DNA of 64,000 bases, taken from positions 3,538,790-3,602,789 of the forward strand of contig NZ_KE386491.1 in assembly GCF_000427405.1 (NCBI RefSeq). The letters run 5' to 3'. Made by a program: the position numbers and the translations under genes. The notes beneath the pieces are model-generated. The model saw nothing but the letters and a program-made list of their open reading frames with translations, did no database searches and was not told the DNA's origin. Source of the stretch: Flectobacillus major DSM 103 (GTDB taxonomy: Bacteria > Bacteroidota > Bacteroidia > Cytophagales > Spirosomataceae). This document shows, in pieces, positions 27,444 to 44,072 of the stretch. The first letter of the stretch is position 1; each line of letters starts with the position of its first letter.

Positions 27444-28166
27444 TTAACGCAAAATAAGTCGGTCAAACTTGTCGACAAACTCCTTTTTTTGGATTCTACT
27501 AAGCGAAAAACAAGCATTATCTATTTCAACGTAGTCGTCTTTAATATTGATTTTTTGTACAAAAAATAAGTTGATGATAACATTCCGATTGATTTTTTCA
27601 AAGTTGTTTCCTTTCAACAAATTTTCATAATGCTTCAACGAACCATAGGTAGCATATTTGGTTTCACGGGTTTTGATATACACCATGTGCCCTATCGACT
27701 CTAAATATAAAATAGAGCTAATACTGATTTTGTGTAAGTAATCGCCTTGTTTTATCATGATAAAATCGGTGGTAGGGGGCGAAACATCATTTATACGATG
27801 ATGCTGAAGTAAATCATCGAGAATAGCCCGAATCGAGAAAGTATTCATGGGCTTGCTTAAACAGAACTTTCGGCAATCTATACGTTTGTATTCCTCATAA
27901 TACTCGTCTGACAGATACGAGCTATTCAGAATAACAGAAGCCGTTGGATTCCGAATCGACGCTAATAGGTCTATTCCTGTAATATCGGACGACACATGAA
28001 TATCTATAAAAAACAATTGATATTCTTTTTCCTTGATAGCCTGTAAAAAAGACTTGGGCGAATTTACATAAGTAGGCTCTATCATAGGATAGTGCTGTAG
28101 TATTAACTCTATATCCAGTTGGTCACTAATGGTATCTTCTAGTACTAAACAAGATAGTGGATTCAT
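27444..28166 (-). CDS. LytTR family response regulator
   Basis: 240 residues: an N-terminal receiver with acidic pocket E10/D11 and phosphoacceptor D55 (LFFIDIHVSS), the conserved Lys in CLSKPMN, and a C-terminal LytTR DNA-binding domain (from about residue 135: FIMIKQGDYLHKISISSILY, LESIGHMVYIKT, then NRNVIINLFFVQKI). It should dimerise on phosphorylation and bind direct repeats upstream of targets. It lies 185 nt downstream of the sensor gene at 28352 on the same strand, so the two probably pair. LytTR regulators more often partner with 5TM/HisKA_3-like kinases, so the pairing with this propeller sensor is noteworthy. Confidence 0.88.
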   Translation of the reverse strand: MNPLSCLVLEDTISDQLDIELILQHYPMIEPTYVNSPKSFLQAIKEKEYQLFFIDIHVSSDITGIDLLASIRNPTASVILNSSYLSDEYYEEYKRIDCRKFCLSKPMNTFSIRAILDDLLQHHRINDVSPPTTDFIMIKQGDYLHKISISSILYLESIGHMVYIKTRETKYATYGSLKHYENLLKGNNFEKINRNVIINLFFVQKINIKDDYVEIDNACFSLSRIQKKEFVDKFDRLILR

Positions 28167-28351
28167 AAATTAAGGCTTTAATACTTTGGCGAAACTGTAC
28201 ACTCGCACAAGCATATATCATGAGCAAGATTTATTCTATTGAGCATTTTAAACTTACGGCAAGAGTTTACTTTTAAAATAAAGCGGTGCATTACGTCCTC
28301 AAATACACCATATACAATTATGTTTTAGGGGTTAATTATACGAGTACAGCT

Positions 28352-31300
28352 TTACTCAGGAATAACTAATTTGGTATGATATATTTCACCTACCTTTTCA
28401 TTGGTTAATTCAATAGACTGCTTCTTCAAGATAGCCTTCAATACACTTAGCCCCATTTTCAGCCCTTGTAGCTCTGGTTGTGGTTCCGTTTCTGAGTGCA
28501 TAAAATTTTGGCAATCGATCGTTAATAAATGAGTATTTCGACTCAACCGAATCTGAATACTACTTCCAGATTTGGCATATTCGATTGTATTAAAAATAAT
28601 ATTCCGCATTACAATCACAAAAAGCCGCTCGTCTACTTTTCCGATAAATACCGCTGGCTCTATCACAAAGGTAAGTCTTCTGAAATCAATATCATTGCTA
28701 TACGAACGAATAATCCTATTAATTAATACAACAAGGTCTACGTTCTGAGGCACAACAGTTTCATTTTTGTTAGAAGACTGAATCCACAAAATCAAGTTAT
28801 CGACCAGCCACAAAAGGCTTTCGCTACGGTGTTTTGATTCTGCACCTAGTTGTAGAAGCCGCTCGTGTTCATTTCGTCGAATCAAGAGATTAAGCTTGTC
28901 TGTTAGGTTATTAAAACTAATAATTGGATGCCGGACATCGTGTACAAGTAACTTGAGAAGGTCGTCACGAAACTGAATATTTTCTTGCAAGCGAACAGTC
29001 TGTCTATCTACTAAGGCTTTTAGCTTGAGGTTACGCAAACGATAATTATACGCATATAACTGAACCACCCCCCAAACACCTAGGACAAGCCCCCCTCCTA
29101 CCAATACCCAGAAGTACCACCGAAAATAAATAGGATACTCTCGATTAATTTCGATTGATTTGATACTGCTTTGCGAAAAGTTGTTACATGCTACTACTTT
29201 GACATAAACGGTAGTTTTGCCATAAGGCAGGTTTTCTAGCCTCAGTTCTTCTTCCAAAAAAGGAGTCCATTCCAACTGATTGGCCTGAGTGGTATAATAA
29301 AACCGCTTGTCGCAATCGTACTGATAATCGTTGTAGGCTACTTCTATTTTCAAAGTATTTTCGTTAGTTTTCAAAAAAATACGAGGTGTACTAATTTGGG
29401 TTTGTACCTGACTCAACACTTGATTGCTGAATATAGCTACTTTTTTTAGTAAAATATTGCCTTCTTGATGCTGGCTTGGAAAGGCTACAGGGTTAATGAC
29501 ATTTAGGCCATTGATACCCCCAAAATACAACACTCCTTGCTCGTCTTGATAATGAGCCAAGGTATTGCACTCGTTGTTGGTGAGGCCATCGAGTTCTGTA
29601 TATATTTTCAGAAGGTTACCTTGGTTATCAAAATGCCAGATCCCTTGTTCGGTGCTTGCCCAATAGCCGTTTTGAGTAGCGTAGCACGACAGAAATTTGA
29701 CGTTGGCAAAAGTCTTGTCTCGAATAAATGGTGTGATTTGCCCCGTTGAAGTATCTAATAACAAAATCCCTTCTTCGGTAGCAAGGCACAGCCTGGTTGG
29801 GTTACCTACAACAAATGTATTGATAAAATATGTTGCTTTTTTTTGCTCTTTGGGGTACTCTATCTCAGTTATTTTGTCAAGGCTATCCAATACATACAAA
29901 CCCGAGCTAGAGGCTATGTATACTTGATTCTTCGTTTTATAAAAATCATAGACCGTCGATTCTTGAAGTGCTTTAGGAATATTTTTTTTCCTAAAATCTA
30001 CTCTTTGGGTTGCTTTATGGTAGTGTCCTATTCCCTTTTTTTCTAAACCTAACAAAAAACCATCTTGGTAATTTTCCATTGCCCAAATACGGGTTTCGTA
30101 ATTAGAATAATAGATTTGATTTTTACGAGTTTTTAGATTGGTACTGCCTAGCAATTGTTCACCAAACCAGATATTACCTTGCTCGTCTGGCAAGATAGAA
30201 AGAACAAAATCAACTGAGGCTTCTGGCCTGAGCGGAGGCAATACCACACTTTTGCCCGTAGTCAAATCTAGGAGTTGCCTAGAGCGATTGGTATTGACTA
30301 CCAGATGTGTTTTATCTATTTTCAAAATAGAACGACACGAATAATTTTCCTCAACAGCCTCTATATTCGGATTGTACAAGTACGTTTGAATTTGTCCTTT
30401 TTGTACCCTTATAATAGAAAAGCCATTATCTGTACTCAAAAACAAATTACCATGGCCATCGGCAAGTAAATGATGAATCGCATTGGCAAAATTGTGTTCG
30501 TATTTTACCTGAAGGTTTTCGTTCAAAAACTGGATTTTGTTATTGTGGTACAGCACAATCGTTTTGTGCTTTGGCTCGTAGGTGATACCTGTCAGGTAAA
30601 AAAAGGTTTGATTAATATTTCCTTGCATACGGGTATTCGTTCCTAGCTTCACCAATTCCATGCTTTTCTTTTGATGAGCATCGTATCGAAGATATAAGGC
30701 ATAAAACTCGTGTCCAACCTCAAGTACCGACTGGCAAAGACGATTACTCAGGCTTTCTTCGTAAAGTATCTTGCCAGCGTAGTCTATCACCACAATCTTT
30801 TTATCTAGCGATATATCTGTTACTTCACAAAAAACAATTCTATTATTCTGTGCATATAATACCTTAATCGGAGCATTGCTATATTTGAGCTTGCGTACCA
30901 TACGGTTTTTTTGGGCAGAATAGGTATATATTTCGCCTTGTTGTGTACCAATTACAAGCTGGCGACGCTCGTCGGAGCGTATTGATTCGATATTAATGCT
31001 ATATGGTAATTTTTGTTCGGCAGGAATAAACTGGTGGTTAGGCAAAAAAACAAAAGTATGGCGTATACCAAATGGATAAAACCATTCAAAACTTTCAGAA
31101 ATCCAGTAATTGCCGAGGTCGTCTTCATAAATAGTATTAAGCCCTTTGGTAGAATACGAATCTGGGAAAGATACCGTTTTGAAGTTTCCATTCTCAAAAA
31201 AAGCCAAATCATTGGCACTCAGAATTATCTTGCGTCCATGCGAATCAATAAAGGACGTATTGATATGCCTATGCCCAATTCCAGAAGCAAGTCCATAATG

Positions 31301-31381
31301 TTTTGACGACAAAAAATATTGTCCCTGAGCAATAATACTATATAATAAACAACCAATCAAAAGCCCTATTCTACAATACAT
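28352..31381 (-). CDS. Two-component propeller sensor histidine kinase
   Basis: 1009 residues. After a signal sequence (MYCRIGLLIGCLLYSIIAQG), residues about 25-640 form beta-propeller repeats with the two-component regulator propeller pattern (YEDDLGNYWISES, DGLTNNECN and similar). A Y_Y_Y-type sandwich follows at about 650-745, a membrane helix at about 750-775, then a coiled-coil/HisKA helix with H814 in LLVHDVRHPIISF. The ATPase domain keeps an N box (NIIFNTIEYA) and a G2-like GLKMGLSVL, but I see no DxGxG G1 box; the segment is IDCQNFM. Catalysis may therefore be weak or need a partner. Known relatives sense polysaccharide fragments in the periplasm. It is next to the LytTR regulator gene. 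Confidence 0.88.
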   Translation of the reverse strand: MYCRIGLLIGCLLYSIIAQGQYFLSSKHYGLASGIGHRHINTSFIDSHGRKIILSANDLAFFENGNFKTVSFPDSYSTKGLNTIYEDDLGNYWISESFEWFYPFGIRHTFVFLPNHQFIPAEQKLPYSINIESIRSDERRQLVIGTQQGEIYTYSAQKNRMVRKLKYSNAPIKVLYAQNNRIVFCEVTDISLDKKIVVIDYAGKILYEESLSNRLCQSVLEVGHEFYALYLRYDAHQKKSMELVKLGTNTRMQGNINQTFFYLTGITYEPKHKTIVLYHNNKIQFLNENLQVKYEHNFANAIHHLLADGHGNLFLSTDNGFSIIRVQKGQIQTYLYNPNIEAVEENYSCRSILKIDKTHLVVNTNRSRQLLDLTTGKSVVLPPLRPEASVDFVLSILPDEQGNIWFGEQLLGSTNLKTRKNQIYYSNYETRIWAMENYQDGFLLGLEKKGIGHYHKATQRVDFRKKNIPKALQESTVYDFYKTKNQVYIASSSGLYVLDSLDKITEIEYPKEQKKATYFINTFVVGNPTRLCLATEEGILLLDTSTGQITPFIRDKTFANVKFLSCYATQNGYWASTEQGIWHFDNQGNLLKIYTELDGLTNNECNTLAHYQDEQGVLYFGGINGLNVINPVAFPSQHQEGNILLKKVAIFSNQVLSQVQTQISTPRIFLKTNENTLKIEVAYNDYQYDCDKRFYYTTQANQLEWTPFLEEELRLENLPYGKTTVYVKVVACNNFSQSSIKSIEINREYPIYFRWYFWVLVGGGLVLGVWGVVQLYAYNYRLRNLKLKALVDRQTVRLQENIQFRDDLLKLLVHDVRHPIISFNNLTDKLNLLIRRNEHERLLQLGAESKHRSESLLWLVDNLILWIQSSNKNETVVPQNVDLVVLINRIIRSYSNDIDFRRLTFVIEPAVFIGKVDERLFVIVMRNIIFNTIEYAKSGSSIQIRLSRNTHLLTIDCQNFMHSETEPQPELQGLKMGLSVLKAILKKQSIELTNEKVGEIYHTKLVIPE

Positions 31382-32115
31382 TCAGTAATTATTTAAGAAA
31401 AATAGATTCTTCCACTAATTTCTCGGATTTATTTGTCTAGTTCAAATACAGCATACGTGTATGTCTCATTTGTTGAGCGGTATTGTCCACAAAGCGAAAT
31501 CAATAGCTTGTAAAAATTGATTTGTAGTTTGGCCAATATCAGCAAACTTTGAAACGATGGCGAGCTGTACCAATACGCCATTGTTTGTGCAAAAGTGGTA
31601 CACTTTTCGTTTTTTCAAAATTACTCACCTCTTTTCGGCCAAGTACCTTTTTATCAATTACATTTGGCCACGATACCACTGGTATTCAGTAATACTTTCT
31701 GTGGCCTACACCGAAAAAGTTGTAATTGAGCCATCACACTAGTAATGATAAGCGAAGTGGATTATAAGCAGTAAAGAAAGTATACTTATTATTAATAATA
31801 GATGAGGGTATCACTAATGGGCGTTTTGATTGAATAAATAGGCATTTTCTTTGTATAGAAATATAATTTCTATACAATCATGAAGCCATACAAGGAAATT
31901 TCTTAGACAAACAACCCTAAATATAACATTGTGAATAATCTAAGGAATAGCAATATTGGTATGGGAATTACCTTAAAATACCCCTAAAAATGATTGGGAG
32001 GAGTCTTGATACGTTTTAATTATAAATAAATTACAGACACCTGTTTTATTGTAACTAATAAATAATTAATTTTACTATACTGTGATTTCTCTAAATCCAA
32101 ACACTTGATTGTCCC
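31382..32115. other. 734-bp intergenic region without a supported gene
   Basis: Divergent gap between the sensor kinase gene and the 32116 gene. It is AT-rich with several short unsupported reading frames. I see no tRNA fold, terminator or clear TAnnTTTG promoter pair. The region must hold promoters for both directions, but I cannot place them with confidence. Confidence 0.5.
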
Positions 32116-32661
32116 TTGAAAAATTTTGTAAGCCTTTCCTTTTTGTGCTTGTTGCTATACAATATGTTTAGCACAGGGATTGTGCTGTTGTGTTTTGACA
32201 AGACTTATCGTGAAGCTACGCCCATTTCACAAAATGACGAATGGATAGAAATCAAAATGCCTATTGCCTTGCCTTACAGCAATGACTTTGTAAACCCAGC
32301 CGCTCATCAAGGACTCATCGAATATCAAGGCAAATATTATAACATCGTAGAACAGCATTATTCAAATGATACCCTTGTTACTAGAATCAAAACGAACCAT
32401 TCTGCCAAACACAAACTCCAGTCTATTGCAGATGAACTAGGCTCTCAGTTTGCAGAACAAAACTCTGGTAAAGATTCACCTCTGAAAAAGGCATTAGACT
32501 TCTGTAAGTCTTTGTCTGGCAACTATATTCCAACAACGGATTTGTCTGTCTCGGCATATCCATGGATATACCTATCTACCTTAAAAAACCAGTTCTACTA
32601 TCATCAACCTGCTACTCAACTTTTTATTATGTCTATTTTTACCCCTCCCGAAGTATCATAG
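32116..32661 (+). CDS. Small membrane or exported protein of unknown function
   Basis: About 181 residues. The frame opens with TTG at 32116 (giving KNFVSLSFLCLLLYNMFSTG after the start), and this hydrophobic helix makes the TTG the best start; the first ATG (32164) would cut the helix in half. The rest is soluble, with a conserved-looking IEYQGKYYNIVEQHYSND and a helix near SPLKKALDFCKSL. I do not recognise a named family, although similar single-helix proteins are often found next to outer-membrane receptors in this phylum. It precedes the AhpD/TonB cluster and may belong to it. Confidence 0.6.
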   Translation: MKNFVSLSFLCLLLYNMFSTGIVLLCFDKTYREATPISQNDEWIEIKMPIALPYSNDFVNPAAHQGLIEYQGKYYNIVEQHYSNDTLVTRIKTNHSAKHKLQSIADELGSQFAEQNSGKDSPLKKALDFCKSLSGNYIPTTDLSVSAYPWIYLSTLKNQFYYHQPATQLFIMSIFTPPEVS

Positions 32662-32843
32662 TTTTTCTTACTGATTTTTTTCTATAGTACCAATGCTCGT
32701 AAAATAACAAGTGGCCAATAGACTCTCTCATTATCAGTCTATTAACCGCCTATTGTTGATTTACTCTGCCTCTTATTACTATAGGCTAGTGTTGCTATTT
32801 TTTTAGCAGCCCGATTTTATATGTCTTAATCAAAGAATTAGCT

Positions 32844-33386
32844 ATGGCACATATTACACTACCCAATCCAAATTTGCCAGGAATTAGTGGTTTGTTAGAC
32901 TACAACAAAACTACAGCACAGCCCCTTTTGCATTTAGCAGAAACCCTATTACGTAGCGACTCGACCCTGACAAGTGGCGAGCGAGAGCTCATTGCTGCAC
33001 ATGTTTCGTACCTAAATAATTGTCACTTTTGCCATTCGTCGCACGCAGCGGCGGCCGTAGCTCATTTAGGCTGCGACATTAGTTTGATGGATGATATTAA
33101 ACGCAATTTTGCCGAAACAACCATTTCGCCCAAACTTAGGGCTTTGCTAGACATTGCGGCCAAGGTACAAAGAGGAGGAAAACACGTATTGCCAGAGGAT
33201 ATTGAAAAAGCCCGCCAACACGATGCAACCGACCGTGAAATTCATGATACCGTTTTGATTGCGGCAGCATTCTGTATGTTTAATCGCTATGTAGATGGCC
33301 TAGGTACTTGGGCACCACAAGACAACGAAGCGTATTTGGAAATGGGTCAGAAAATGGCTTTTCTCGGTTACAATCGTCCTAGATAA
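32844..33386 (+). CDS. AhpD-fold carboxymuconolactone decarboxylase family protein, paralogue 1
   Basis: 180 residues, cytosolic by sequence (no signal). The core motif reads ERELIAAHVSYLNNCHFCHSSH. It gives Glu, eleven residues, C-x2-C, three residues, His: the same E-x11-C-x2-C-x3-H spacing as the AhpD peroxidase active site. Such proteins are annotated as peroxidase-related or carboxymuconolactone decarboxylase family. Redox chemistry is likely; the true substrate is unknown. The end (EIHDTVLIAAAFCMFNRYVD, then GLGTWAP) is conserved in all three paralogues here. It precedes the paralogue-2/TonB/MFS group by 216 bp and a hairpin. Confidence 0.85.
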   Translation: MAHITLPNPNLPGISGLLDYNKTTAQPLLHLAETLLRSDSTLTSGERELIAAHVSYLNNCHFCHSSHAAAAVAHLGCDISLMDDIKRNFAETTISPKLRALLDIAAKVQRGGKHVLPEDIEKARQHDATDREIHDTVLIAAAFCMFNRYVDGLGTWAPQDNEAYLEMGQKMAFLGYNRPR

Positions 33387-33439
33387 ACTTTTTCTTACAA
33401 ACTCTTTTTGGGCATAACTGTATCACAACAGTTGATGAG

Positions 33440-33461
33440 AAACCCTTTGTCCAAAGGGTTT
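33440..33461 (+). terminator. Small hairpin after AhpD paralogue 1
   Basis: AAACCCTTTG (33440-33449) and CAAAGGGTTT (33452-33461) form a 10-bp stem (two-base spacer, so a 4-nt effective loop), followed by TT only. A weak terminator is possible. Confidence 0.5.
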
Positions 33462-33602
33462 TGAACTCTGGCTTTTAGGCAGAGGTAAGGTAATCGTGCA
33501 GCATCAGTTTGAATTATAAGATTAAATCATTCAGCACACCTTCCTATCTGTCGTTGTATTTTAATGAATCCCCAATCGTACTAATATAAGATTTTACTTA
33601 CA

Positions 33603-34166
33603 ATGCCTCATATTCCACTACCCGAGCATCTTCCTGGTATTACAGGACTTTTAGAATATAGCCAAACAACTGCTCAGCCTATTCGCGAGCTAACCCAAAT
33701 ATTATTGCGTGGCGACAACACGCTAAGCCAAGGCGAACGAGAACTCATTGCAAGCATTGTTTCGCACCAAAACGAATGTAAATTCTGTACGTCGGCTCAT
33801 ACGGCAGCGGCAGATATTCTGTTGGGCAACACCCAAACCTGTGAAATGGTAAAACATAATTTAGCAGATGCTCCAGTAAGTCCAAAAATGAAAGCGTTGC
33901 TGCAAATTGCCAAAATGGTTCAAGTAAGTGGCAAAGCTGTTAGCCCACAGGCTATTGAAGAAGCCAAAAATCAAGGGGCAAGCGATGCCGAAATTCATGA
34001 TACGGTTTTGATAGCAGCCCTATTCTGCCTTTATAATCGCTATGTCGATGGCATGGCCAGTGTAACCCCTCCTGTAGAGAGCGGCTTTTATCAGCAACTA
34101 GGCGAGCGAATTGTACATCATGGCTACAATCGCCTACCACAAGGCTACGACCATTTGAAAAAGTAA
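33603..34166 (+). CDS. AhpD-fold carboxymuconolactone decarboxylase family protein, paralogue 2
   Basis: 187 residues with the same E-x11-C-x2-C-x3-H active-site pattern (ERELIASIVSHQNECKFCTS then AH). The C-terminal block is EIHDTVLIAALFCLYNRYVD. It is the most divergent of the three: GMASVTPP replaces GLGTWAP. Only about 26 nt separate its stop from the TonB receptor start at 34193, so cotranscription with the receptor and MFS gene is very likely. Confidence 0.85.
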   Translation: MPHIPLPEHLPGITGLLEYSQTTAQPIRELTQILLRGDNTLSQGERELIASIVSHQNECKFCTSAHTAAADILLGNTQTCEMVKHNLADAPVSPKMKALLQIAKMVQVSGKAVSPQAIEEAKNQGASDAEIHDTVLIAALFCLYNRYVDGMASVTPPVESGFYQQLGERIVHHGYNRLPQGYDHLKK

Positions 34167-34192
34167 ACTTCCAACATTTTATGCTCCATACC

Positions 34193-36958
34193 ATGAACAA
34201 CAAATACTTATATATATTCATCTTTTTTTTAGTCAAGATAACTGCCCTTGCCCAAACAGTAAGAGTAACAGGCAAAGTGACCGATGCCGAAACCCAAAAA
34301 GAGCTTTCGGGAGTATCAATTGCCGTTAAAGGTAAACTTAGCGGTACAAAAACCAACCAAGAGGGAGTTTTTAGCTTATTGACCAAAGGCCCCGCCACGA
34401 TTGTTGTATCGATGATTGGTTTTGAAAGACAAGAATATCTTATTAAAGAATCTCAACATTTGGCCATAACCTTAGTACCAGCCTCTGCCGAGCTGAATCA
34501 AGTAGTTGTAACAGCCTCTAGGGTCGAAGAAAATATCCTTAGGTCGCCCGTTAGTATTGAAAAAATGGACATTAGGAATATCCAACAAACCCCTTCTGCC
34601 AACTACTATGACGGTTTGCTCAACCTCAAATCTTTGGATATGGTAACCAGTAGCCTTACCTATAAGCAAATCAATACTCGTGGGTTTAATAGTACTGGAA
34701 ATGGGCGTTTTCTGCAATTGGTAGATGGTATCGACAACCAACCTGCGGGCTTGGGTTTTGCAATGGGCAATATGTTTGGCCCACACGATTTGGATGTTGA
34801 AAGTGCCGAGTTAATTGCAGGAGCGGCATCGGCATTATATGGGCCAATTGCTTTTAATGGAATGCTGAATACCAGAACCAAAAACCCTTTTGATTTTCAG
34901 GGGCTGAGTATCCAAACCAAAGTAGGTTTAAATCATATTGCTGATGGTACAGGCTTAGGGGCAAAACCAATGAGTGATTTGGCATTGAGATACGCCAAGG
35001 TTTTCAACAACAAATTTGCCTTCAAAATTAATGCTTCGTATCTCAGAGGTACAGATTGGTACGCCAATAATTATACCGACATCGACCCCAACACACCAGC
35101 CACCAGCCGTGGTGTAAATAACCCCGGAAGAAATGCTATTAATATTTATGGCGATGAAGTAGCTCAGACTTTACCTAATATTGGTCGAGTATCGAGAACG
35201 GGTTACGAAGAAAAAGATTTGGCCAATTATGGTGTGTATAATGTTAAACTCAACGGTGCATTACACTACCGTATCAGCGACAACCTTGAGGCCATATATC
35301 AGGCTAATTACAACCAAGGAACAGCCCAATACACAGGAAGTAACCGTTTCGTTATCAACGACTTTCAGTTTGTACAACATCGTTTAGAGCTAAAAGGAAG
35401 TAGCTTTTATATTCGTGCCTATTCCAACCAAGAAATTTCTACCAATTCTTATAATACACGCTCGTTGGGGCAGCAGATCAACCGTACTTGGGTAAAAGAC
35501 CTCAGCGGCAATACCGTAACACCCGACAAAGCCGATGCTACGTGGTTTCAGCGTTATGCAGCAGCATTTAATGGCACTATCAATGGTATCACCGCCAAAG
35601 ACCATACTGTAGCACGGGCTTTTGCCGATGAAGGAAGAATACTACCTGGTAGTACCCCATTTGAGCAAGCCAAAGAGAGGCTTATTCAAACAACAGGGCT
35701 TTCGGGAGCTGGCATTAAAAGTAATTGTAGCCTAAAGCATATTGAGGGAATGTACGATTTTAGCTCGGCCATTAAGCTATTCAATTTGCAAGTAGGTGGC
35801 AACTATCGTAAATTTTATTTAGATACTGAAGGAACACTTTTTGACGATAAAGGTAAAAACCTCACCAACGACGAGTTTGGCTTATTTGCTCAGGCTTCAA
35901 AAAGCATTTTGGACGACAAACTCAAAGTGACATTGTCGGGCAGATACGATAAAAACGAAAACTTTAAAGGTCAATTTACCCCAAGAGCCTCTGCGGTATT
36001 CTCTCCGACCGATAGACACCATTTTAGAGCTTCGTACCAAACGGGTTTTCGCAATCCTACTATTAGCGACCAATTCATTAAGTTGGATGTTGGCCCTATT
36101 CTTATTTTGGGAGGTGCTCCTGTCAATTCTCAGGGGATGAATGTTTATGAAAACTCTTTCACTGCAGCTTCGGTAAGTGCCTTTGGTAGTGGGTTTGGGG
36201 CAGACCTTCAGAAAGGAACGCCTTTTCCCAATGCTTTGGCCAACAATAAGGATAAGTTAGTAAAATCGAATGTACCTTATATCAAATCAGAGAAGGTACA
36301 AAGTGTTGAATTTGGCTACAAAGGGTTAATTACCCCAAAAGTACTTTTCGACATCAACTATTACTATAGCCAATACACCGATTTTATTATTAATTCGGTT
36401 GTAATTCGTCCTAATAGCCCTGTAACCCTTGCCAATGGCAGTATCAACCCCGATGCCGCCGCCGATATTCTGAATGGTAGAATTAAGGCGTTCCAGCTTT
36501 ATACCAACGCTTCCGACAAGGTTTCTATTCAAGGTGTTGGTGCAGGACTTACTTTTGCCTTGCCAAAACATTATCAACTTAATGCCAATGCTACATGGAT
36601 TGATTTTAATATTATGGATGCCAATCCCAACAATATTCCGGCCTTTAATACACCTACATGGAAAAGCAATGTGGTGTTGAGTAACCCCAAGCTAACCGAA
36701 CGGTTGGGCTTTAGTGTGGCATGGCACTGGCAAACGGCCTTTGACTGGTATGGTACTTTTACAGAGCTTATTCCGGGGCGTGTAAGTGCCTATAATTTGT
36801 TGGATGCACAAGTAAGCTACAAAGTACCAAGCCTCAAAACAACTATCAAATTAGGAGCATCTAACCTCACCAATCAGTATGTGGTACAAGCCTATGGCTC
36901 GCCGTCGGTAGGAGGTTTATATTATGTAAGCTTAAATTTTGACGAACTTTTTAGATAA
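34193..36958 (+). CDS. TonB-dependent outer-membrane receptor
   Basis: About 921 residues; start at 34193 (MNNKYLYIFIFFLVKITALA) opens a signal peptide, better than the ATG four codons earlier. A carboxypeptidase-regulatory-like domain follows (VRVTGKVTDAETQKELSG). The plug domain is at about 110-230 (LNQVVVTASRVEENILRSPV, INTRGFNSTGNGRFLQLVDG), then a 22-strand-type barrel ends in the aromatic terminus VGGLYYVSLNFDELF. It imports a bulky substrate using TonB energy. No SusD partner is present, so a siderophore, cofactor or other small ligand is more likely than a polysaccharide. Sandwiched between an AhpD-like gene and an MFS gene (8-bp gap). Confidence 0.93.
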   Translation: MNNKYLYIFIFFLVKITALAQTVRVTGKVTDAETQKELSGVSIAVKGKLSGTKTNQEGVFSLLTKGPATIVVSMIGFERQEYLIKESQHLAITLVPASAELNQVVVTASRVEENILRSPVSIEKMDIRNIQQTPSANYYDGLLNLKSLDMVTSSLTYKQINTRGFNSTGNGRFLQLVDGIDNQPAGLGFAMGNMFGPHDLDVESAELIAGAASALYGPIAFNGMLNTRTKNPFDFQGLSIQTKVGLNHIADGTGLGAKPMSDLALRYAKVFNNKFAFKINASYLRGTDWYANNYTDIDPNTPATSRGVNNPGRNAINIYGDEVAQTLPNIGRVSRTGYEEKDLANYGVYNVKLNGALHYRISDNLEAIYQANYNQGTAQYTGSNRFVINDFQFVQHRLELKGSSFYIRAYSNQEISTNSYNTRSLGQQINRTWVKDLSGNTVTPDKADATWFQRYAAAFNGTINGITAKDHTVARAFADEGRILPGSTPFEQAKERLIQTTGLSGAGIKSNCSLKHIEGMYDFSSAIKLFNLQVGGNYRKFYLDTEGTLFDDKGKNLTNDEFGLFAQASKSILDDKLKVTLSGRYDKNENFKGQFTPRASAVFSPTDRHHFRASYQTGFRNPTISDQFIKLDVGPILILGGAPVNSQGMNVYENSFTAASVSAFGSGFGADLQKGTPFPNALANNKDKLVKSNVPYIKSEKVQSVEFGYKGLITPKVLFDINYYYSQYTDFIINSVVIRPNSPVTLANGSINPDAAADILNGRIKAFQLYTNASDKVSIQGVGAGLTFALPKHYQLNANATWIDFNIMDANPNNIPAFNTPTWKSNVVLSNPKLTERLGFSVAWHWQTAFDWYGTFTELIPGRVSAYNLLDAQVSYKVPSLKTTIKLGASNLTNQYVVQAYGSPSVGGLYYVSLNFDELFR

Positions 36959-36966
36959 AAACCCTC

Positions 36967-38187
36967 ATGAATCAGACTCGAATTATTGCTTCAAAAAAGG
37001 GATTATCGTTTGCTTTATGTATGCTGAGCTACCTATTGGGTGGCTCAGTATCGACGATGATGTCGGTTTACCTACCTATTGCACTACCCGACTTACTGCA
37101 CAAAAACCTTTCAGAACATGACCTATCTGAAATAGGGGCTTATATCAATGCCATTTTTTTGTATGGATGGATGCTGGGCGGTTTGGTTATTGGTTTTGTC
37201 AGCGATAAAATCGGTAGAATCAGTACATTGGCAATGGCTACGGGGATTTGTGGGCTAGCCACAGTTCTTGTGGTATTTGTAGATAACTGGTACGTTTTAT
37301 TAGCCTTGCGTTTTTTTGCAGGTATAGGAGTTGGCGGTATTTTACTTATTTCTACAGTATATATTGCCGAAATCTGGCCTGAAAAAACACGCCCTATCTT
37401 TTTGGGTATCTTGGCAGTTTCTTTTCCAATCGGAATTGTACTAACAGGCGGTATTACCCTCCTTTTTGCCAACTGGCATGATGCCTTTTGGATAGGCCTA
37501 TTACCTGTATTATTGGCTATTTTGATATTCCTTTTATTGCCCGAATCGTTGGCTTGGCGGAATATTCAAAAAACAAAACGACCTATTCATCAGCCTGTTT
37601 TTACTCAGCACAACCGTGCCAATTTAGTCGTTGGTATCCTGATTTTTGGGTCTGTACTTATTGGACTTTGGGGTATATTCTCGTGGCTACCTACATGGGT
37701 ACAAGGGCTGTTGGTAGATGGAGAAAAAGGTCAAAAAGAACGAGGTGCAGTTATGATGATACTCGGTATTGGTGGTATTGTAGGAGGCTTTTTGTCGGGT
37801 TTTCTTATCAAATCGTGGGGATTCAAAACTACCTTAATGCTTACTTTCTTGGGATGTAGTGGGGCTTGTATACTGCTATTTTTAACCAATACAGCCTTTA
37901 GTCCTATTATTTATGTTGAAACAGCCTTACTTTCTCTCTTTTTTGGGATTAGCCAAGGAACACTTTCAAGCTTTATTCCTGCCCTATTTCCTACCGAAAT
38001 TCGAGGCAGTGCTTCGGGCTTATGTTTTAATATTGGTCGCTTTTTTACGGCTACGGCAGTTTTTTTTGTGGGCAATTTAGTGGCTATTCTAGGTGGTCTT
38101 AGCAACTCTCTACTGGTATTTTCTATTACGTTTATAGTAGCTTTTATGATTGTTTTACGAGGTAAAACACATTATACATCAGCATAG
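36967..38187 (+). CDS. MFS transporter
   Basis: 406 residues with about twelve membrane helices. The loop motif between helices 2 and 3 is GFVSDKIGRISTLA, the MFS signature, and an LPESLAWRN loop follows helix 6. The ATG at 36967 begins 8 nt after the receptor stop, so the two are translationally close. It resembles metabolite/drug or aromatic-acid MFS carriers, but the substrate is not deducible. In the cluster it would move the receptor's ligand, or a product of it, across the inner membrane. A terminator-like stem follows at 38370. Confidence 0.9.
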   Translation: MNQTRIIASKKGLSFALCMLSYLLGGSVSTMMSVYLPIALPDLLHKNLSEHDLSEIGAYINAIFLYGWMLGGLVIGFVSDKIGRISTLAMATGICGLATVLVVFVDNWYVLLALRFFAGIGVGGILLISTVYIAEIWPEKTRPIFLGILAVSFPIGIVLTGGITLLFANWHDAFWIGLLPVLLAILIFLLLPESLAWRNIQKTKRPIHQPVFTQHNRANLVVGILIFGSVLIGLWGIFSWLPTWVQGLLVDGEKGQKERGAVMMILGIGGIVGGFLSGFLIKSWGFKTTLMLTFLGCSGACILLFLTNTAFSPIIYVETALLSLFFGISQGTLSSFIPALFPTEIRGSASGLCFNIGRFFTATAVFFVGNLVAILGGLSNSLLVFSITFIVAFMIVLRGKTHYTSA

Positions 38188-38258
38188 CTATTCAACAGGT
38201 AATCAAGTATTTATCACTAAAAAAATTACATTGGTTTTTCGATTTATAATTAGGGCTA

Positions 38259-38333
38259 TACGAAGGATTTTATTTTATTGAGAAGCATTTTTATCATGAG
38301 TATTTTTGCAATTTTATTTTATAAACCTTCGTA
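38259..38333 (+). promoter_or_regulatory. Promoter of AhpD paralogue 3, bracketed by an inverted repeat
   Basis: TTG at 38278-38280, a 20-nt spacer, then TATTTTTG (38301-38308) fit the Bacteroidota -33/-7 consensus. The 8-bp repeat TACGAAGG (38259-38266) and CCTTCGTA (38326-38333) flank the promoter symmetrically and could be an operator pair or a looping site. Confidence 0.5.
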
Positions 38334-38369
38334 CAGTATTAATTTATAATAATGAATTGTATTAGTAGA

Positions 38370-38401
38370 AAACGAGCTTGTCGGATGTTATAGGCTCGTT
38401 T
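38370..38401 (+). terminator. Hairpin between the promoter and AhpD paralogue 3
   Basis: AAACGAGC (38370-38377) pairs with GCTCGTTT (38394-38401), followed by TCTTTTCATTTTTT. It lies downstream of the promoter at 38278-38308 and upstream of the start at 38462. It could terminate read-through from the MFS gene or act in the paralogue-3 leader. Confidence 0.6.
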
Positions 38402-38461
38402 CTTTTCATTTTTTATCATTACTAAGCATCCTTTTTCAAACCTTTAACATACAACTTACTC

Positions 38462-39034
38462 ATGGCCTATATCACTATTCCCGAAGAAACACAGCTACCC
38501 GGTATTAGGGGACTCATGGCATTTAGCCCACAAACAGCAAGACCGCTTAACGCATTAGCCGAGTTATTGCTTCGACATCCCGACAACACGCTGTCGCAAG
38601 GCGAGCGAGAGCTTATTGCTACTTATACCTCCTATCTCAACGATTGCCTTTTTTGTCAAAGTGTACATGGCTCGGCTGCCCAATGCTATTTGGACGACGA
38701 TGGTACAATAATAAGTCAGGTAAAAAGGGATTTGTGGACTGCTCCTATTTCTGATAAAATGAAAGCCTTACTTTTAATCGCCCAAGCGGTTCAGAAAGGA
38801 GGCAAATATGTGACAGATGTGCAGATTCAGTTAGCCCATGAAAGCGGTGCTAGCGACCGTGAAATTCATGATACCGTTTTGATTGCGGCGGCATTCTGTA
38901 TGTTTAATCGGTATGTCGATGGCTTGGGTACGTGGGCTCCTACTGCCCCCGAAGCCTATAAAGACCGAGGTGCTCGGATTAGAGACGAAGGCTATGCCAA
39001 CTTCGACCCAATGGCCTATATTCAAGCTCAATAA
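38462..39034 (+). CDS. AhpD-fold carboxymuconolactone decarboxylase family protein, paralogue 3
   Basis: 190 residues with the E-x11-C-x2-C-x3-H motif intact (ERELIATYTSYLNDCLFCQS then VH). A 57-nt stretch (38854-38910) differs by one base from paralogue 1 (33230-33286), although the rest of the two genes is clearly diverged. The stop is 12 nt before the DUF3179 gene, so the two likely form an operon driven by the promoter at 38278-38308. Confidence 0.87.
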   Translation: MAYITIPEETQLPGIRGLMAFSPQTARPLNALAELLLRHPDNTLSQGERELIATYTSYLNDCLFCQSVHGSAAQCYLDDDGTIISQVKRDLWTAPISDKMKALLLIAQAVQKGGKYVTDVQIQLAHESGASDREIHDTVLIAAAFCMFNRYVDGLGTWAPTAPEAYKDRGARIRDEGYANFDPMAYIQAQ

Positions 39035-39046
39035 CCCTTTACCAAC

Positions 39047-40225
39047 ATGAAAAACGTTTTACTTTTACTTGGCTTTTTGGTACTTTTCCTTGCCGAAATA
39101 CTCAAAGTATATTTTATTATGCCATTTCCTGGCAGTCAACAGATCAACAGTATCGATTTTGCCTATTTCTTACACAACCATATTTGGTACTTTCGTGGTC
39201 TTGGTATTGTTCTGACAATATGGCCTTTATTTGCTATTTTTCAACAAAAAGCCCTAATACCTAAGTGGATTGGCGGAGGTTTGCTGCTAGCATGGATAGT
39301 TGTTTTTTATTTATTTAATTTTCGTTTTTTGGCAGAAAAAATGTTTTATCAACCCAAAGTTCAAACCTTTACGACGGCCAAAAGCAACAAAATTGCACTC
39401 AATAAACTTATCGTGGGTGTTGTTATTAATAAGCAGGCTCGTGCTTACCCCATTCAACTTATTGGGTATCATCATCAGGTAGTAGATACTCTTGGTGGCG
39501 AGGTTATTATGGTAACATATTGTACGGTATGCCGTACAGGAAGGGTATATATGCCAAAAGTAAATAGTCAAAATGACCAATTCCGTTTGGTAGGGATGGA
39601 CCATTTCAATGCTCTTTTTGAAGACCAATCTACTGGCTCGTGGTGGCAGCAAGCCACAGGTGAAGCCATTGCGGGGCCACAAAAAGGACAAACCTTACCT
39701 TCTATCGCTTCCGAGCAAATGACGTTGTCGGCTTGGCTCAAACAGTATCCTGATGCTACTATTATGCAACCCGACGAGCATTATAAAGAGGAATATGACC
39801 ACCTACAAAAGTATGATCAAGGCAGAGGAAAAAGTACCCTTACCAAAAGAGACTCGCTTTCTTGGCAACCCAAATCGTGGGTTGTGGGTATCAAGCTTGA
39901 CCAATATGCCAAGGCTTATGACTGGAATGTGCTGTTGAAAAAAAGAATTATACAGGATTCATTAGGTACGACATCGCTCATTGTTGTAATAGAAAAAGAC
40001 AACAATAGCTTTCATGTATTTAAAAGCTATTCGCCAGAAGGTAAGTTACATTTGGTATTACAACAAAACCAACTTATTGATACAGAGTCAAATGCGATTT
40101 GGAGTTTGGAAGGAAGATGTATTGCAGGAAAATATGCGGGTACGTATTTACCTAAAATACAGGCATATCAAGAGTTTTGGCATTCTTGGCAAACCTTTCA
40201 TCCACAAACTTTACAAGGCCAATAA
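39047..40225 (+). CDS. Membrane-anchored DUF3179 protein
   Basis: 392 residues. Three hydrophobic segments (about 1-25, 50-70 and 76-95: LLLLGFLVLFLAEILKVYFI, GLGIVLTIWPLFAIF, GGGLLLAWIVVFYLFNF) anchor it. The soluble part from about residue 125 is DUF3179, with the hallmark VVINKQARAYPI and the cysteine pair in VTYCTVCRTGRVY, then DHFNALFEDQSTGSWW. Function of DUF3179 is unknown, but the conserved C-x2-C suggests thiol or metal chemistry. It follows AhpD paralogue 3 by 12 nt, which ties an exported or membrane thiol protein to a cytosolic thiol protein. Confidence 0.87.
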   Translation: MKNVLLLLGFLVLFLAEILKVYFIMPFPGSQQINSIDFAYFLHNHIWYFRGLGIVLTIWPLFAIFQQKALIPKWIGGGLLLAWIVVFYLFNFRFLAEKMFYQPKVQTFTTAKSNKIALNKLIVGVVINKQARAYPIQLIGYHHQVVDTLGGEVIMVTYCTVCRTGRVYMPKVNSQNDQFRLVGMDHFNALFEDQSTGSWWQQATGEAIAGPQKGQTLPSIASEQMTLSAWLKQYPDATIMQPDEHYKEEYDHLQKYDQGRGKSTLTKRDSLSWQPKSWVVGIKLDQYAKAYDWNVLLKKRIIQDSLGTTSLIVVIEKDNNSFHVFKSYSPEGKLHLVLQQNQLIDTESNAIWSLEGRCIAGKYAGTYLPKIQAYQEFWHSWQTFHPQTLQGQ

Positions 40226-40553: not shown

Positions 40554-41393
40554 CTAGTCTACCCAGTTTCGTAATGTACCAATATGCTCTATGGTAATGG
40601 CAATCTCGTCGCCCGGAGCTAGTGTAAATTCATTGGGAGGGACAATCCCAGTACCTGTCATCAAATAACACCCTTGTGGGAAAGTACACTCACGAAATAA
40701 ATAGGCAACCAATTCGGTATGTTGGCGTTTCATTTGATTGATAGAGATCGTTCCTACAAAAACCTCCTCATTGGCTCTTTTAATGCTTAATGAAATTTGT
40801 GCATTAGGATTTATCACTGTTTCGGGAACGAATAAACAGGGGCCAATCGCCGCCGCACCATCATAAGACTTGGCCTGAGGAAGATACAAAGGATTTTCGC
40901 CCTCGATACTTCTCGAACTCATGTCATTTCCAACGGTATAACCCACTATTTTACCATGAGAGGTAATAAACAAGGTTAGCTCTGGCTCTGGCACATTCCA
41001 GCCAGAATCTTTTCTGATTCGTACCTTTTGGTCTGTACCTACAGTACGATAATAAGGTGCTTTGAAAAATAACTCAGGACGTTCGGCATCATATACTTTG
41101 TCGTAAAACGTACCGCCACCAGCATCTTTAGATTCCTCCATGCGGGCATTGCGACTACGCAAATAAGTAACACCCGAAGCCCAGATTTCTTGTGTACCAA
41201 TAGGAGCTAATAAGTGATAATCTTGAAGAATATCTGACGAGCCAATGGCTTCATTGTTTTCGCAGAATGCCGACAAATAGCCAAATAGGTTATCATGATT
41301 CACGATAGTGTCCCAACTTTGCTCGTCGCCAAGATTAAAGATATTTCCTTGCGATTCTACCAAAATTCCTTTTGATGTATTATACAACTTCAT
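40554..41393 (-). CDS. FAH-fold sugar-acid enzyme (2-keto-3-deoxy-pentonate dehydratase or diketo-fuconate hydrolase type)
   Basis: 279 residues of the fumarylacetoacetate-hydrolase superfamily. The metal ligands lie in VPEPELTLFI (two Glu) and the second motif in GYTVGNDMSSRSIEG. The segment SGVTYLRSRNARMEES with DKVYDAERPELFFKA resembles 2-keto-3-deoxy-D-arabinonate/xylonate dehydratases of oxidative sugar pathways; FAH-fold hydrolases of 2,4-diketo-3-deoxyfuconate are a close alternative. It lies 168 nt downstream of a GH95 fucosidase on the same strand and near an alcohol dehydrogenase, favouring a deoxy-sugar or pentose breakdown role. Confidence 0.8.
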   Translation of the reverse strand: MKLYNTSKGILVESQGNIFNLGDEQSWDTIVNHDNLFGYLSAFCENNEAIGSSDILQDYHLLAPIGTQEIWASGVTYLRSRNARMEESKDAGGGTFYDKVYDAERPELFFKAPYYRTVGTDQKVRIRKDSGWNVPEPELTLFITSHGKIVGYTVGNDMSSRSIEGENPLYLPQAKSYDGAAAIGPCLFVPETVINPNAQISLSIKRANEEVFVGTISINQMKRQHTELVAYLFRECTFPQGCYLMTGTGIVPPNEFTLAPGDEIAITIEHIGTLRNWVD

Positions 41394-41561
41394 TGCCTAG
41401 TGAGGTTATTAGTAGCCCTTTACTTGTATCACAAAGGGCTACTATGTTAGATAATTGAAATACTAGCATTGTTTATTTTACCCTAGAGGCTTATTACACT
41501 TTTCAGGCATAAAGCCATTTTATTCAAGCATTGGTACACTTTTCACCCTGTCACCAATGTC

Positions 41562-44072
41562 CTATCGCCCAATCACTACAACCTGTCCTTTTGTGGTAGG
41601 TACATCGTATTCAAAATACGTTTTCGATATCCCTTCAGCCAAAGAAACGCCTGCAGGAACTATTGGTTCAGTACCTTTGATTGGATTCAGCAACACATTT
41701 TTTAATGCACCATTAACCAGTTTTGCCCCTTTGATTTTTAAGGGTACTTCCGAGCGAACACGGCATATTCCTCCTACCTTCGATACAACCTTACCACTCT
41801 GTAATTGGCCATTTTGCCATGTCATATCAACGACAAAGCCTCCTCTAGCCACCAAGCCCTTTACTTGGCCATTTTGCCATGTACTTGGTAAAGCTGGCAA
41901 CAAATGCACAGCCCCTGCATGCGACTGCAACAATAGTTCGGCCATACCAGCGGTAGCACCAAAGTTACCATCAATTTGGAATGGTGGATGTGCATCGAAA
42001 AGATTTTTATAAACACCCCCTTTGTGGTAATTATAGCCACTCGACTCCATCGGAGAAAGCAAGTTTTTCAAAATAACTAAAGCGTGGTCGCCGTCGAGTA
42101 GCCTTGCCCAAAAGTTAACTTTCCAGCCCATTGCCCAGCCCGTACCTTCGTCGCCACGACTAATAAGGGCATTTTTTACGGCCGAAAACAACTTTGGCGA
42201 AGTCCAAGGGTTTACTTGATTACTTGGATGCAGAGCATACAAATGCGATGAATGACGGTGGTGCGGGTCTGTTTCTTCAAAATCCTCTGACCACTCCATC
42301 AAATTTCCTTTGGCATTAACCCTAAAAGGCTGTAATTGCGGTAATATACTGGCTAATTTCTTGCTAAATTCGGGGTCGGTATTCAAAATCTTACTAGCTT
42401 CATAACAATTAGATAACACCTCACGAGTAATCCCTAAGTCCATGGCTGTTCCTACCGAAATACCGAGTTCTTTGCCTTGATATTTATATTTATTTTCTGG
42501 CGAAAAGCCGTATGCTAACTCATAAAAGCCTGCCTCATTTTTCACCAAAAACCCTAAAACAAACTCGGATGCTCCTTTCAAAATAGGATAACTATTGGCC
42601 AAAAACTGCTTGTCGCCCGTAAACAAATAATGCTCGTAAATATGACTACAAAGCCATGCTCCACCCATTTGCCAATTGGCCCAAATAGGATCGCCTGTAC
42701 CAAAATCACCTACGGGTGCCGATAACCCCCAAATATCGACATTGTGGTGTGCTACCCAGCCGTTTAGTCCATAATGTAACTTAGCTGTTTTTTTACCATT
42801 GACAGAAAGGTCTTTGATAAGCTCAAATAATGGACTTGTAGTGGCCGACAAATTACAAGTTTCGGCAGGCCAGTAATTCATTTGCACATTGATATTAGAA
42901 GTATAATTTGAACTCCACGGCGGACGAACCATATTATTCCAAATACCTTGCAAATTGGCGGCCTGCCCTCCTTTTCTGGATGAGGCAATCAATAAATATC
43001 GACCATAGTTAAACAACAAATTGGCCAATTGTGGGTCGTTGTCTTTCTCGTAGTTTTTGATACGAATATCGGTAGGCACACGGCTATCGCCTTTGCTTTC
43101 TAACTCAAGGTTTACGCCACTATATAAAGCATGATAATCTTGATAGTGTGCTTTTTTCAAACTTTCGTACGACCTTGCCGTAGCCCATTTCATTAGTTTA
43201 CTAGCCTCAATCGAAGGTTCTAAACCTTTCAGCCCTGGTGAATTGAAACGCCCATTATAACTTGTAGTAGCTACCACGATCAGGGTGGCATCGCTAGCGT
43301 CCGACAATACCAATTGGTTATTGCTAACACTTACTTTACCCGAATTGGTTTTGATACTCAACCATACCTCGGCCTCCATACCCTCGCCTCCCCAATCATC
43401 AACCTTCACGGCATCGTCGCCCTTAAACTCGCTACGGTAATTGGGTTCGACATGTTTTGGAGCTTTACAACGAATTTTCAAGATATTATTTTCTACCCAA
43501 ACCTTATTTTTCATCAATGAGCCAAAGCCAACAGTAAAGCCCAAACTACCACGAGTAGAGCTATTCAGCTGAACAGCCATTAGTTTGTCGGGAAAACTTG
43601 TCAACAATTCACGGGTATATTCGGCCTTGGGTGTACGGTATTTGACATGGGTAGTGGCCGTATTCAAATCTAAATCCCTGTAATACTGCGATACCTGATT
43701 GGTATCGGCAAAGGTTAAATGAATATCGCACAGGGGTTGATACGACTGCGTGTATGCTCCCTGCATTTTTTTAGTAAGAACCTCCGCTTCGGCATATTTT
43801 TTTTCTTTCATCAAGGCTTTTACCTGTGGAAAATACTGAGCAGATTGCGGGTTATTCCATTCTTTGGGAGCTCCCGACCAAAATGAAGTATGATTGAGCT
43901 GAATCAATTCTTGGCCTGTTTTTCCAAAAACCATAGCCCCCAAATGACCATTGCCAATGGGTAGGGCTTCGACCCAGTACTTAGCAGGTGCATCGTACCA
44001 AAGTGTCTGATTCTGAGCAAAATTTGGAAAAGCCAGAACATTAAATAGTAGTAAAGAGAGTAATTTTTTCAT
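41562..44072 (-). CDS. Glycoside hydrolase family 95 (alpha-L-fucosidase type)
   Basis: 836-residue secreted enzyme (signal [20 protein letters not shown]). The start [20 protein letters not shown], then GAMVFG and LNHTSFWSG, is the GH95 N-terminal beta domain. The catalytic (alpha/alpha)6 region has [11 protein letters not shown] (Asn/Glu active-site loop) and [20 protein letters not shown] near the C-terminus, with the catalytic Asp in the latter. GH95 releases alpha-1,2-linked L-fucose by inversion; some members act on L-galactosides, so the linkage is not certain. It is on the same strand as the FAH-fold gene and divergent from the iron alcohol dehydrogenase. Confidence 0.92.

Follow-up and report, generated by a model that had tools for sequence, protein, structure and literature searches.

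The 64,000-nucleotide stretch of the Flectobacillus major DSM 103 genome analysed here (the window; contig NZ_KE386491.1, positions 3,538,790 to 3,602,789) contains a set of forward-strand genes in which three AhpD-type proteins, a TonB-dependent receptor, a major facilitator superfamily (MFS) carrier and a DUF3179 protein form one conserved operon (Table 1). The set is preceded by a small gene, here called F1, which is the most unusual component of the module. A first-pass annotation of the window, made from its letters and open reading frames (ORFs), had proposed that these genes act as one system; its gene positions were reproduced, including the gaps of 8 bp between the receptor and MFS genes and of 12 bp between the last AhpD gene and the DUF3179 gene. 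The proposal of a single system stands, while the inclusion in it of an upstream sensor kinase and LytTR regulator does not. The first-pass annotation did not recognise F1 as a leader gene with a likely part in cis-regulation, nor the further operons that F1 heads.

Table 1. Positions of the operon features and of the divergent neighbouring pair in the window
Feature	Position	Strand	Basis or remark
F1 leader gene, 181 aa	32116..32661	+	TTG start; 0 Pfam, 0 NCBIfam families
F1 start codon TTG (non-ATG)	32116..32118	+	Aligned start column of 82 homologues
F1 PP codons, residues 177-178, three residues before the end	32644..32649	+	37-member alignment
F1-AhpD intergenic region, 182 bp, without TAnnTTTG motif	32662..32843	+	Motif scan
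AhpD-type protein, position class U2	32844..33386	+	Pfam, NCBIfam, motif, tree
AhpD-type protein, position class U1, adjoins receptor	33603..34166	+	Pfam, NCBIfam, motif, tree
TonB-dependent receptor (CarbopepD_reg_2 + plug + barrel)	34181..36958	+	Pfam, NCBIfam
MFS transporter	36967..38187	+	Pfam MFS_1; best NCBIfam match aromatic-acid/H+ symporters, far below cut-off
AhpD-type protein, position class D1	38462..39034	+	Pfam, NCBIfam, motif, tree
DUF3179 protein, membrane-anchored, C159-x2-C162	39047..40225	+	Pfam; predicted fold weakly like Rieske domains
Divergent pair of propeller two-component sensor kinase and LytTR regulator	27444-31381	-

Conservation and components of the operon

The association of these genes was assessed in two kinds of sample. 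The first comprises 117 non-redundant loci, namely 79 drawn by AhpD similarity (the best 80 of 546 confirmed AhpD matches), 37 from genomes of the window's family (40 stretches were chosen, three of which repeated named loci) and the window itself. The presence of AhpD in these loci is a matter of selection, and their genes come from a simple ORF script in place of a gene finder; some receptor frames are split (L041, L102). The second comprises whole-genome searches with the receptor, DUF3179 and F1, which are free of this selection. The genome searches with AhpD and F1 list best places only, and distances from the receptor and DUF3179 to AhpD were taken to the listed AhpD places (available for 85 of 88 genomes and 85 of 86 receptor places).

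This AhpD type is present in 90 of 200 family genomes and in 15 of 36 genera, mostly with two to four copies per carrying genome among the matches listed. A receptor orthologue (E <= 1e-200) was found in 84 of the 200 genomes, all of them among the 90 AhpD carriers, and in 0 of the 110 non-carriers. Furthermore, for 82 of the 86 receptor places a listed AhpD place is no more than 6 kb away; one of the remaining four is at 7.7 kb, one is in a genome whose AhpD place is unlisted, and two, a second copy and a contig piece, have no listed AhpD on the same contig. DUF3179 occurs in 88 of the 90 AhpD-carrying genomes and in 26 of the 110 others (p = 4e-30, without correction for kinship), and lies within 20 kb of an AhpD gene in 67 of the 85 genomes with listed places. 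The receptor is held by 58 of the 117 loci, and these also contain the MFS gene (57), F1 (53), DUF3179 (38) and at least two AhpD genes (57). Its carriers include Flectobacillus longus (with a split frame), Emticicia agri, several Dyadobacter, Mucilaginibacter gossypii, M. kameinonensis and Ohtaekwangia koreensis. Among 295 genomes of the class, a close receptor (>1000 bits) was found in four, three of which belong to the window's family, and AhpD genes lie beside all four; 17 other class genomes contain receptor relatives of 500-590 bits only. The order of the genes changes from locus to locus while membership is kept, and the same set is also found in other bacterial families. The module genes consequently co-occur and are adjacent across genera, well beyond close relatives, and the gene-neighbourhood comparison that had been suggested at the outset finds AhpD, TonB receptor and DUF3179 together in many genomes. 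In a literature search conducted chiefly outside subscription journals and preprints, no publication was recognised as describing the module or F1, in agreement with the earlier remark that no described system of this composition was known. One same-genus record, NZ_JAAALB010000009.1 (L040), is titled Cellulophaga sp. BC115SP; a genome search (G037) places it in the window's genus, it resembles Flectobacillus, and its name may be wrong.

The three AhpD-type proteins belong to the CMD family of Pfam (47.5, 46.8 and 53.3 bits; cut-off 23) and to NCBIfam TIGR01926 (82.1, 84.8 and 87.1; cut-off 81.8), and the E-x11-C-x2-C-x3-H motif reported in the first pass is intact in all three (E48, C60, C63 and H67 in the first). 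The second and third are 52 and 56% identical to the first. Further CMD-family genes are present in the genome, and only the three of the window match their own model at E <= 1e-20. The exact motif is found in 227 of 261 AhpD relatives. Position classes were set relative to the receptor and MFS genes, and the best match of each protein in another locus (at <80% identity) shares its class for 49 of 52 U1, 21 of 21 U2, 40 of 46 D1, 30 of 35 D2 and 3 of 5 D3 proteins. In the AhpD tree, 52 U1 proteins fall in a clade of 53, 33 D1 in a clade of 33 and 21 U2 in a clade of 22, while D2 forms two clades (12 in 13 and 16 in 18). This agreement of class across loci indicates that several distinct AhpDs are kept side by side, and that the paralogues are old and position-specific. 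A changed C-x2-C site is seen in AhpD paralogues of L049, L050 and L052 (10001-10567) and in several U1 and D1 copies, although neighbouring copies keep the site.

Known enzymes of the AhpD/TIGR01926 group (2prr, 2pfx, 2oyo, 3c1l and 6k40, with the third AhpD as query) share the CMD fold family and the E-x11-C-x2-C-x3-H motif with these proteins. The window differs in that three co-encoded, position-specific paralogues stand beside a receptor and a carrier, and in that the operon lacks a dehydrogenase or AhpC gene. Tables in two papers list selenocysteine-containing relatives of both partners, TIGR01926 AhpD-like (CxxU) and DUF3179 (UxxC/T) proteins in one (PMC13188914) and COG2128 AhpD-like (CxxU) and DUF3179 proteins in the other (PMC9312934), and the existence of such versions lends support to redox roles for the AhpD and DUF3179 cysteines. 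A MetE-like single-domain protein lies beside or near AhpD genes in several loci of Bacteroidota and Acidobacteria (L057, 8889-9965; L086, L098, L105, L188). The one Bacteroidota member that was scanned contains PF01717, and the protein is a possible thiol-transfer partner.

The receptor scores 103 bits on the Pfam TonB barrel and the carrier 132.8 bits on MFS_1. On the more specific NCBIfam models the receptor remains under the cut-offs, both for heme TonB receptors (TIGR01785, 92.1; cut-off 316.85) and for SusC/RagA (TIGR04056, 86.9; cut-off 368.25). Siderophore systems in which a TonB receptor works with a single MFS permease are LbtU/LbtC and FslE/FslD. In these, as in the window operon, a receptor and MFS pair replaces an ATP-binding cassette (ABC) importer; the FslD model gives the window carrier no more than 28.2 (cut-off 500), and AhpD and DUF3179 partners are not known to belong to those systems. 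The presence of outer- and inner-membrane carriers and thiol-type enzymes in one tight operon, also pointed out in the first pass, suggests import and thiol handling.

The last gene is a member of DUF3179 (PF11376, 193.6 bits; cut-off 27) and the only one in the window's genome, and Y-C-x2-C is kept in 44 of 44 module copies. Its predicted structure (predicted local distance difference test, pLDDT, 91.8; predicted template-modelling score, pTM, 0.88) consists of membrane helices, of which there appear to be three at the N-terminus, followed by two similar β domains, a repeat read from the strand pattern. The C159-x2-C162 pair lies in the first β domain; the first pass had described a membrane-anchored protein with a C-x2-C pair. 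A Foldseek search with this model returned no match at E <= 0.001; the 50 matches listed are mostly Rieske-type (best E 0.012; template-modelling score to the target <= 0.62), and the rest include RseB at low probability. Rieske clusters are bound by C-x-H and C-x2-H ligands; the pair conserved in DUF3179 is C-x2-C. The predicted likeness to Rieske domains is a lead, not a membership. Searching the DUF3179 sequence against the PDB gave one match only, at E 0.96.

The F1 leader gene and the operons that follow it

Sequence comparisons indicate that F1 is a Bacteroidia-wide family without a Pfam entry. None of 37 relatives gave a convincing Pfam match, and members outside the window's genus are only 11-30% identical to the window F1. 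The first-pass annotation had placed a small single-helix protein at the head of the block; the position held, but the predicted model of F1 (pLDDT 74.7, pTM 0.39) has a small β-sheet domain and two further helices after its N-terminal membrane helix, and ends in a flexible, low-confidence tail that contains the proline pair PP. No PDB structure matches this fold at E <= 0.001. In the 37-member alignment, G66 and P177 are invariant and P178 nearly so. A PP pair lies within the last 14 residues of all 82 F1 proteins of the module loci, compared with 49 of 1161 other supported genes and 33 of 261 AhpDs taken alone. The same tail is present in 29 of 29 copies from further loci and in 30 of 30 class-wide copies, three of which repeat earlier ones; the 82 were grouped by plain sequence similarity, while the model used to find the 29 and the 30 has the PP columns in it. 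The class-wide tails are those of the 30 best matches, and some weaker matches end before the tail columns (e.g. 2-141 of 184). In 77 of 111 tails the motif is PPP, and in Dyadobacter the conserved PPP codons vary synonymously only. The start codons are also unusual, as the aligned start column of the 82 homologues contains 50 TTG, 21 GTG, 4 ATG, 5 other codons and 2 gaps (the two frames without an aligned start); TTG or GTG thus starts 71 of the 82.

In 81 of 82 cases the next gene is a same-strand gene of the module, the exception being in L148. These next genes are diverse: 49 encode AhpDs, 8 and 6 encode two barrel families, 7 CRTAC1-like proteins, 4 FecA-like receptors, 4 the receptor, 2 MetE-like proteins and 1 DUF3179. 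The gap between F1 and AhpD is long, with a family median of 169 bp. TAnnTTTG is the -7 promoter motif of Bacteroidota. It occurs within 120 bp upstream of the F1 start in 51 of 108 cases, in 9.5% of 1152 other upstream regions and in only 2 of 76 gaps of at least 60 bp between F1 and the next gene. Expressed as density, this is 4.48 per kb upstream of F1 and 0.12 per kb in the gaps, compared with 0.62-1.16 and 0.18-1.14 per kb, respectively, for changed control patterns. F1 is read as heading the transcript because the promoter motif is often found before F1 and almost never between F1 and the next gene.

Other control elements were sought in the same regions. No Rfam family reaches its gathering score, either in the window or in the six module loci scanned, which disfavours a riboswitch or other known RNA control there. 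Many of the gaps after F1 can fold, by folding without a shuffle control, and variation among the gaps led to the rejection of a common hairpin. By eye, an inverted repeat, AATAGACT...AGTCTATT, is seen at 32717-32743 in the F1-AhpD gap; it is not kept in an alignment within the genus. Also by eye, a strong hairpin can be seen in the F1-FecA gaps of L043, L125 and L134, a few bases past the stop codon of F1, and its two arms appear to covary among the three loci. This hairpin could be an attenuator for F1 control.

F1 is more widespread than the AhpD module. It is present in 163 of the 200 family genomes, with one to seven copies each among the matches listed, and at least one copy is found in 97 of the 295 class genomes. 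The window's genome has five copies, each before a different operon. Apart from the copy in the window, these precede two barrel proteins (PF13557, 22.5 and 27.8; cut-off 22) with a PAP2/haloperoxidase-like protein (49.1; cut-off 27.2) in L159, a small DUF417 membrane protein (33.7; cut-off 27) in L160, an FG-GAP/ASPIC protein in L179 and a TonB receptor in L180. Most of the divergent F1 genes that were read stand before TonB receptors, while the one in L206 stands before a peptidase-like gene. The F1-headed operon of L219 goes on to encode a substrate-binding protein, a BtuC/FecCD-type permease and an ATPase with a score above the cut-off of the heme ABC model (297.7 > 261), although the heme-receptor model gives the receptor of this locus no more than 44. 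After the F1 of L187 come a chromate-transporter-like gene and a receptor scoring above the cut-off of a siderophore model (271.2 > 223.5). The kinds of operon headed by F1 therefore include barrel with PAP2/haloperoxidase-like, DUF417, CRTAC1-like, FecA-like, heme-type ABC and siderophore-receptor sets. Operons such as those of L124, L127, L141, L149 and others repeatedly combine PAP2/vanadium-haloperoxidase-like proteins with the two barrel families and with FecA-like receptors. Iron-regulated pairs of a hypothetical protein and a TonB receptor, BT0503-0504 and PG2006/PG2008 (PMC10434189), are a lead only for F1.

The genes flanking the operon are not kept with it. The divergent sensor kinase and LytTR regulator were compared with the 79 AhpD-drawn loci (the 40 later stretches are outside this comparison), where the kinase has one weak match (L062, 40 bits) and the regulator two (L099, 45 bits; L102, 44 bits), and no match to the pair was found in the three same-genus loci L040-L042. 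The pair is accordingly a divergent neighbour, not a part of the system. On the other side, the minus strand at 40554-44072 carries a FAH-family hydrolase beside an 836-aa gene; the nearest models of the hydrolase are sugar-acid hydrolases, far below cut-off, and a FAH-type gene had no match in the same 79 loci. The 836-aa gene presumably resembles a GH95 alpha-fucosidase, and the two genes perhaps belong to a fucose-type pathway.

Proposed mechanism and competing explanations

The explanation proposed here is that F1 acts as a nascent-chain cis-regulator, and that the operon imports a small ligand and treats it, or its peroxide, with thiol or redox enzymes; we consider this evenly poised between right and wrong. 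The TonB receptor and the MFS carrier would move the ligand across the outer and inner membranes. The AhpDs, which perhaps form mixed oligomers, would then reduce or process the ligand, or a peroxide that it brings, via their C-x2-C pair, while DUF3179 would do related redox work at the inner membrane. During translation, the membrane helix of F1 would engage the export machinery and its small domain would sense a condition outside the cytoplasm. The C-terminal PP would slow or stall the ribosome, and the downstream operon would be expressed or terminated depending on what the F1 nascent chain meets. It is proposed that the imported compound is iron-, heme- or oxidant-related. An iron- or heme-type cue for F1 is the leading guess because F1 heads heme-type ABC and siderophore-receptor operons elsewhere; reactive oxidants are the second guess because PAP2/haloperoxidase-like, DUF417 and AhpD genes occur in F1-headed operons.

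Several known systems offer precedents. CruR of Bordetella pertussis is a DUF2946 upstream ORF (uORF) that comes first, ahead of a TonB receptor; three residues separate its RAPP motif from its end, and the intergenic region measures 162 bp (PMC9426467). Its arrest has been shown in vitro, and uORFs ending in RAPP or RGPP precede TonB receptors in Gram-negative bacteria (PMC12992588). CruR and F1 are alike in being small, exported first genes with a proline motif near the stop and a long intergenic region. They differ in that DUF2946 gave no match in the 37 F1 members down to E 0.1, their alignment has no invariant or nearly invariant cysteine column from which a CXXC could be formed, and F1 lacks RAPP, belongs to Bacteroidia and heads several kinds of operon. 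CutF of Rhodobacter capsulatus is likewise an exported nascent protein with a proline-rich C-terminus, and controls the next gene (PMC9973294), as is proposed for F1. The CxxxC copper site of CutF and its stem-loop over the next start were not found conserved for F1; CutF also has a cleavable signal. Arrest peptides of the SecM, VemP, MifM and ApdA type and the NSP-stop and NAP-stop uORFs of Bacteroidota share with F1 an N-terminal localisation signal, a spacer of more than 30 residues, a conserved C-terminal end and an upstream position (PMC10987492, PMC12992588). The Bacteroidota examples include proline-ended uORFs before secA and secDF (PMC10987492). Such uORFs were sought before secA, secDF and yidC or by RAPP-like ends (PMC10987492, PMC12992588), whereas the usual end of F1 is (S/T/Q)PPx, and the operons after it are of uptake and redox type. 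In the wide sense, F1 thus appears to have the features of a secreted nascent-chain regulator: a head position, an N-terminal localisation signal, a spacer of more than 30 aa and a conserved C-terminal end.

A number of observations weigh against this proposal. Of 80 F1 copies with a gene upstream, 55 share their strand with that gene, in 11 cases at a distance below 60 bp, which weakens the head position; that position therefore rests mainly on the promoter motif. The window F1 itself has no TAnnTTTG within 120 bp, the nearest being at 31659. Fur boxes before F1 have a mean best match of 11.5 of 19 positions versus 11.0 for the comparison, with A+T contents of 65 and 59%, and the enrichment is not clearly beyond that expected from A+T content. 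No hairpin kept across genera was seen in the gaps after F1, and that of the three F1-FecA gaps was not seen in the fourth (L148). None of the 111 F1 tails contains R[A/G]PP or RA[G/P]P, the motif type with proven arrest. With regard to the operon, the exact redox motif is missing from 34 of 261 AhpD paralogues, suggesting that some copies have changed role. The AhpD type occurs without a close receptor in 20 of 24 class genomes and DUF3179 without this AhpD type in 26 family genomes, and for the window receptor and carrier every NCBIfam model listed has a cut-off above their score.

The strongest competitor, to which we give a real but lesser-than-even chance, is that F1 functions as a protein in the periplasm, where it would serve what the next gene encodes as an accessory or adaptor, and that its C-terminal PPx binds a partner or protease. 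The predicted β-sheet domain and conservation beyond the tail (G66, P49, Y75 and a D-T-L-Y stretch) speak for such a protein. However, the genes after F1 are of widely differing types (AhpD, barrels, CRTAC1-like, receptors, MetE-like, DUF417), every F1-headed operon comes with a separate F1 copy, weak start codons are retained, and the gap to the next gene is long and nearly devoid of the promoter motif.

It is also conceivable, if rather unlikely, that the operon provides defence or repair against reactive oxidants such as peroxide or hypohalous acid, with the receptor and MFS carrier moving a protective or damaged metabolite, perhaps outward. TonB receptors are importers, no part of the module is linked more tightly than the receptor, and F1 also heads heme-type and siderophore operons, all of which argue against this possibility. 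It draws on the AhpD motif, on the PAP2/haloperoxidase-like neighbours, 27 of 33 of which match a loosely written vanadate-site pattern, and on the DUF417 match in another operon of this genome that F1 heads; DUF417 is the family of RclC (PMC12096828).

An aromatic-acid catabolic uptake set, in which the CMD-family proteins would be decarboxylases, is improbable. CMD is the Pfam name of the AhpD-type family, the best NCBIfam match of the carrier is to aromatic-acid/H+ symporters (TIGR00895, 148.5 bits) with MhpT at 98.4, and the two barrel families of other F1 operons pass the Pfam model 'MetA-pathway of phenol degradation' with the PF13557 scores given above. Nevertheless, the carrier scores lie far under the respective cut-offs (418.55 and 410), the window AhpDs keep the redox motif, and no ring-cleavage family was annotated among the recurrent neighbours, in a comparison that included no search aimed at such genes. 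Finally, chance or plain vertical co-inheritance of unrelated genes is highly improbable. The genomes are related and the counts not independent, yet presence is patchy (15 of 36 genera) with complete receptor-AhpD linkage (84 of 84 versus 0 of 110), DUF3179 is linked as well (88 of 90 versus 26 of 110), and membership is kept through changes of order and in other bacterial families.

Meaning for the Bacteroidia

A broader proposal, which we put forward tentatively and with less than even confidence, is that Bacteroidia possess class-wide exported nascent-chain sensors of the F1 type, with a polyproline instead of a RAPP end, weak starts and up to several copies per genome, that serve as interchangeable cis-switches before iron/heme, haloperoxidase-like and AhpD/TonB/MFS/DUF3179 operons; the window operon would be the AhpD branch, a new uptake system of receptor, carrier and thiol enzymes. 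If F1 is a nascent-chain switch, the same translation-coupled sensor would stand before many uptake operons, several per genome in some families. This would explain the control of these TonB systems and open a direct route to their cue. DUF3179 and the TIGR01926 AhpDs would, in addition, gain a physiological setting open to testing through gene deletion in culturable Flectobacillus, Dyadobacter and Mucilaginibacter.

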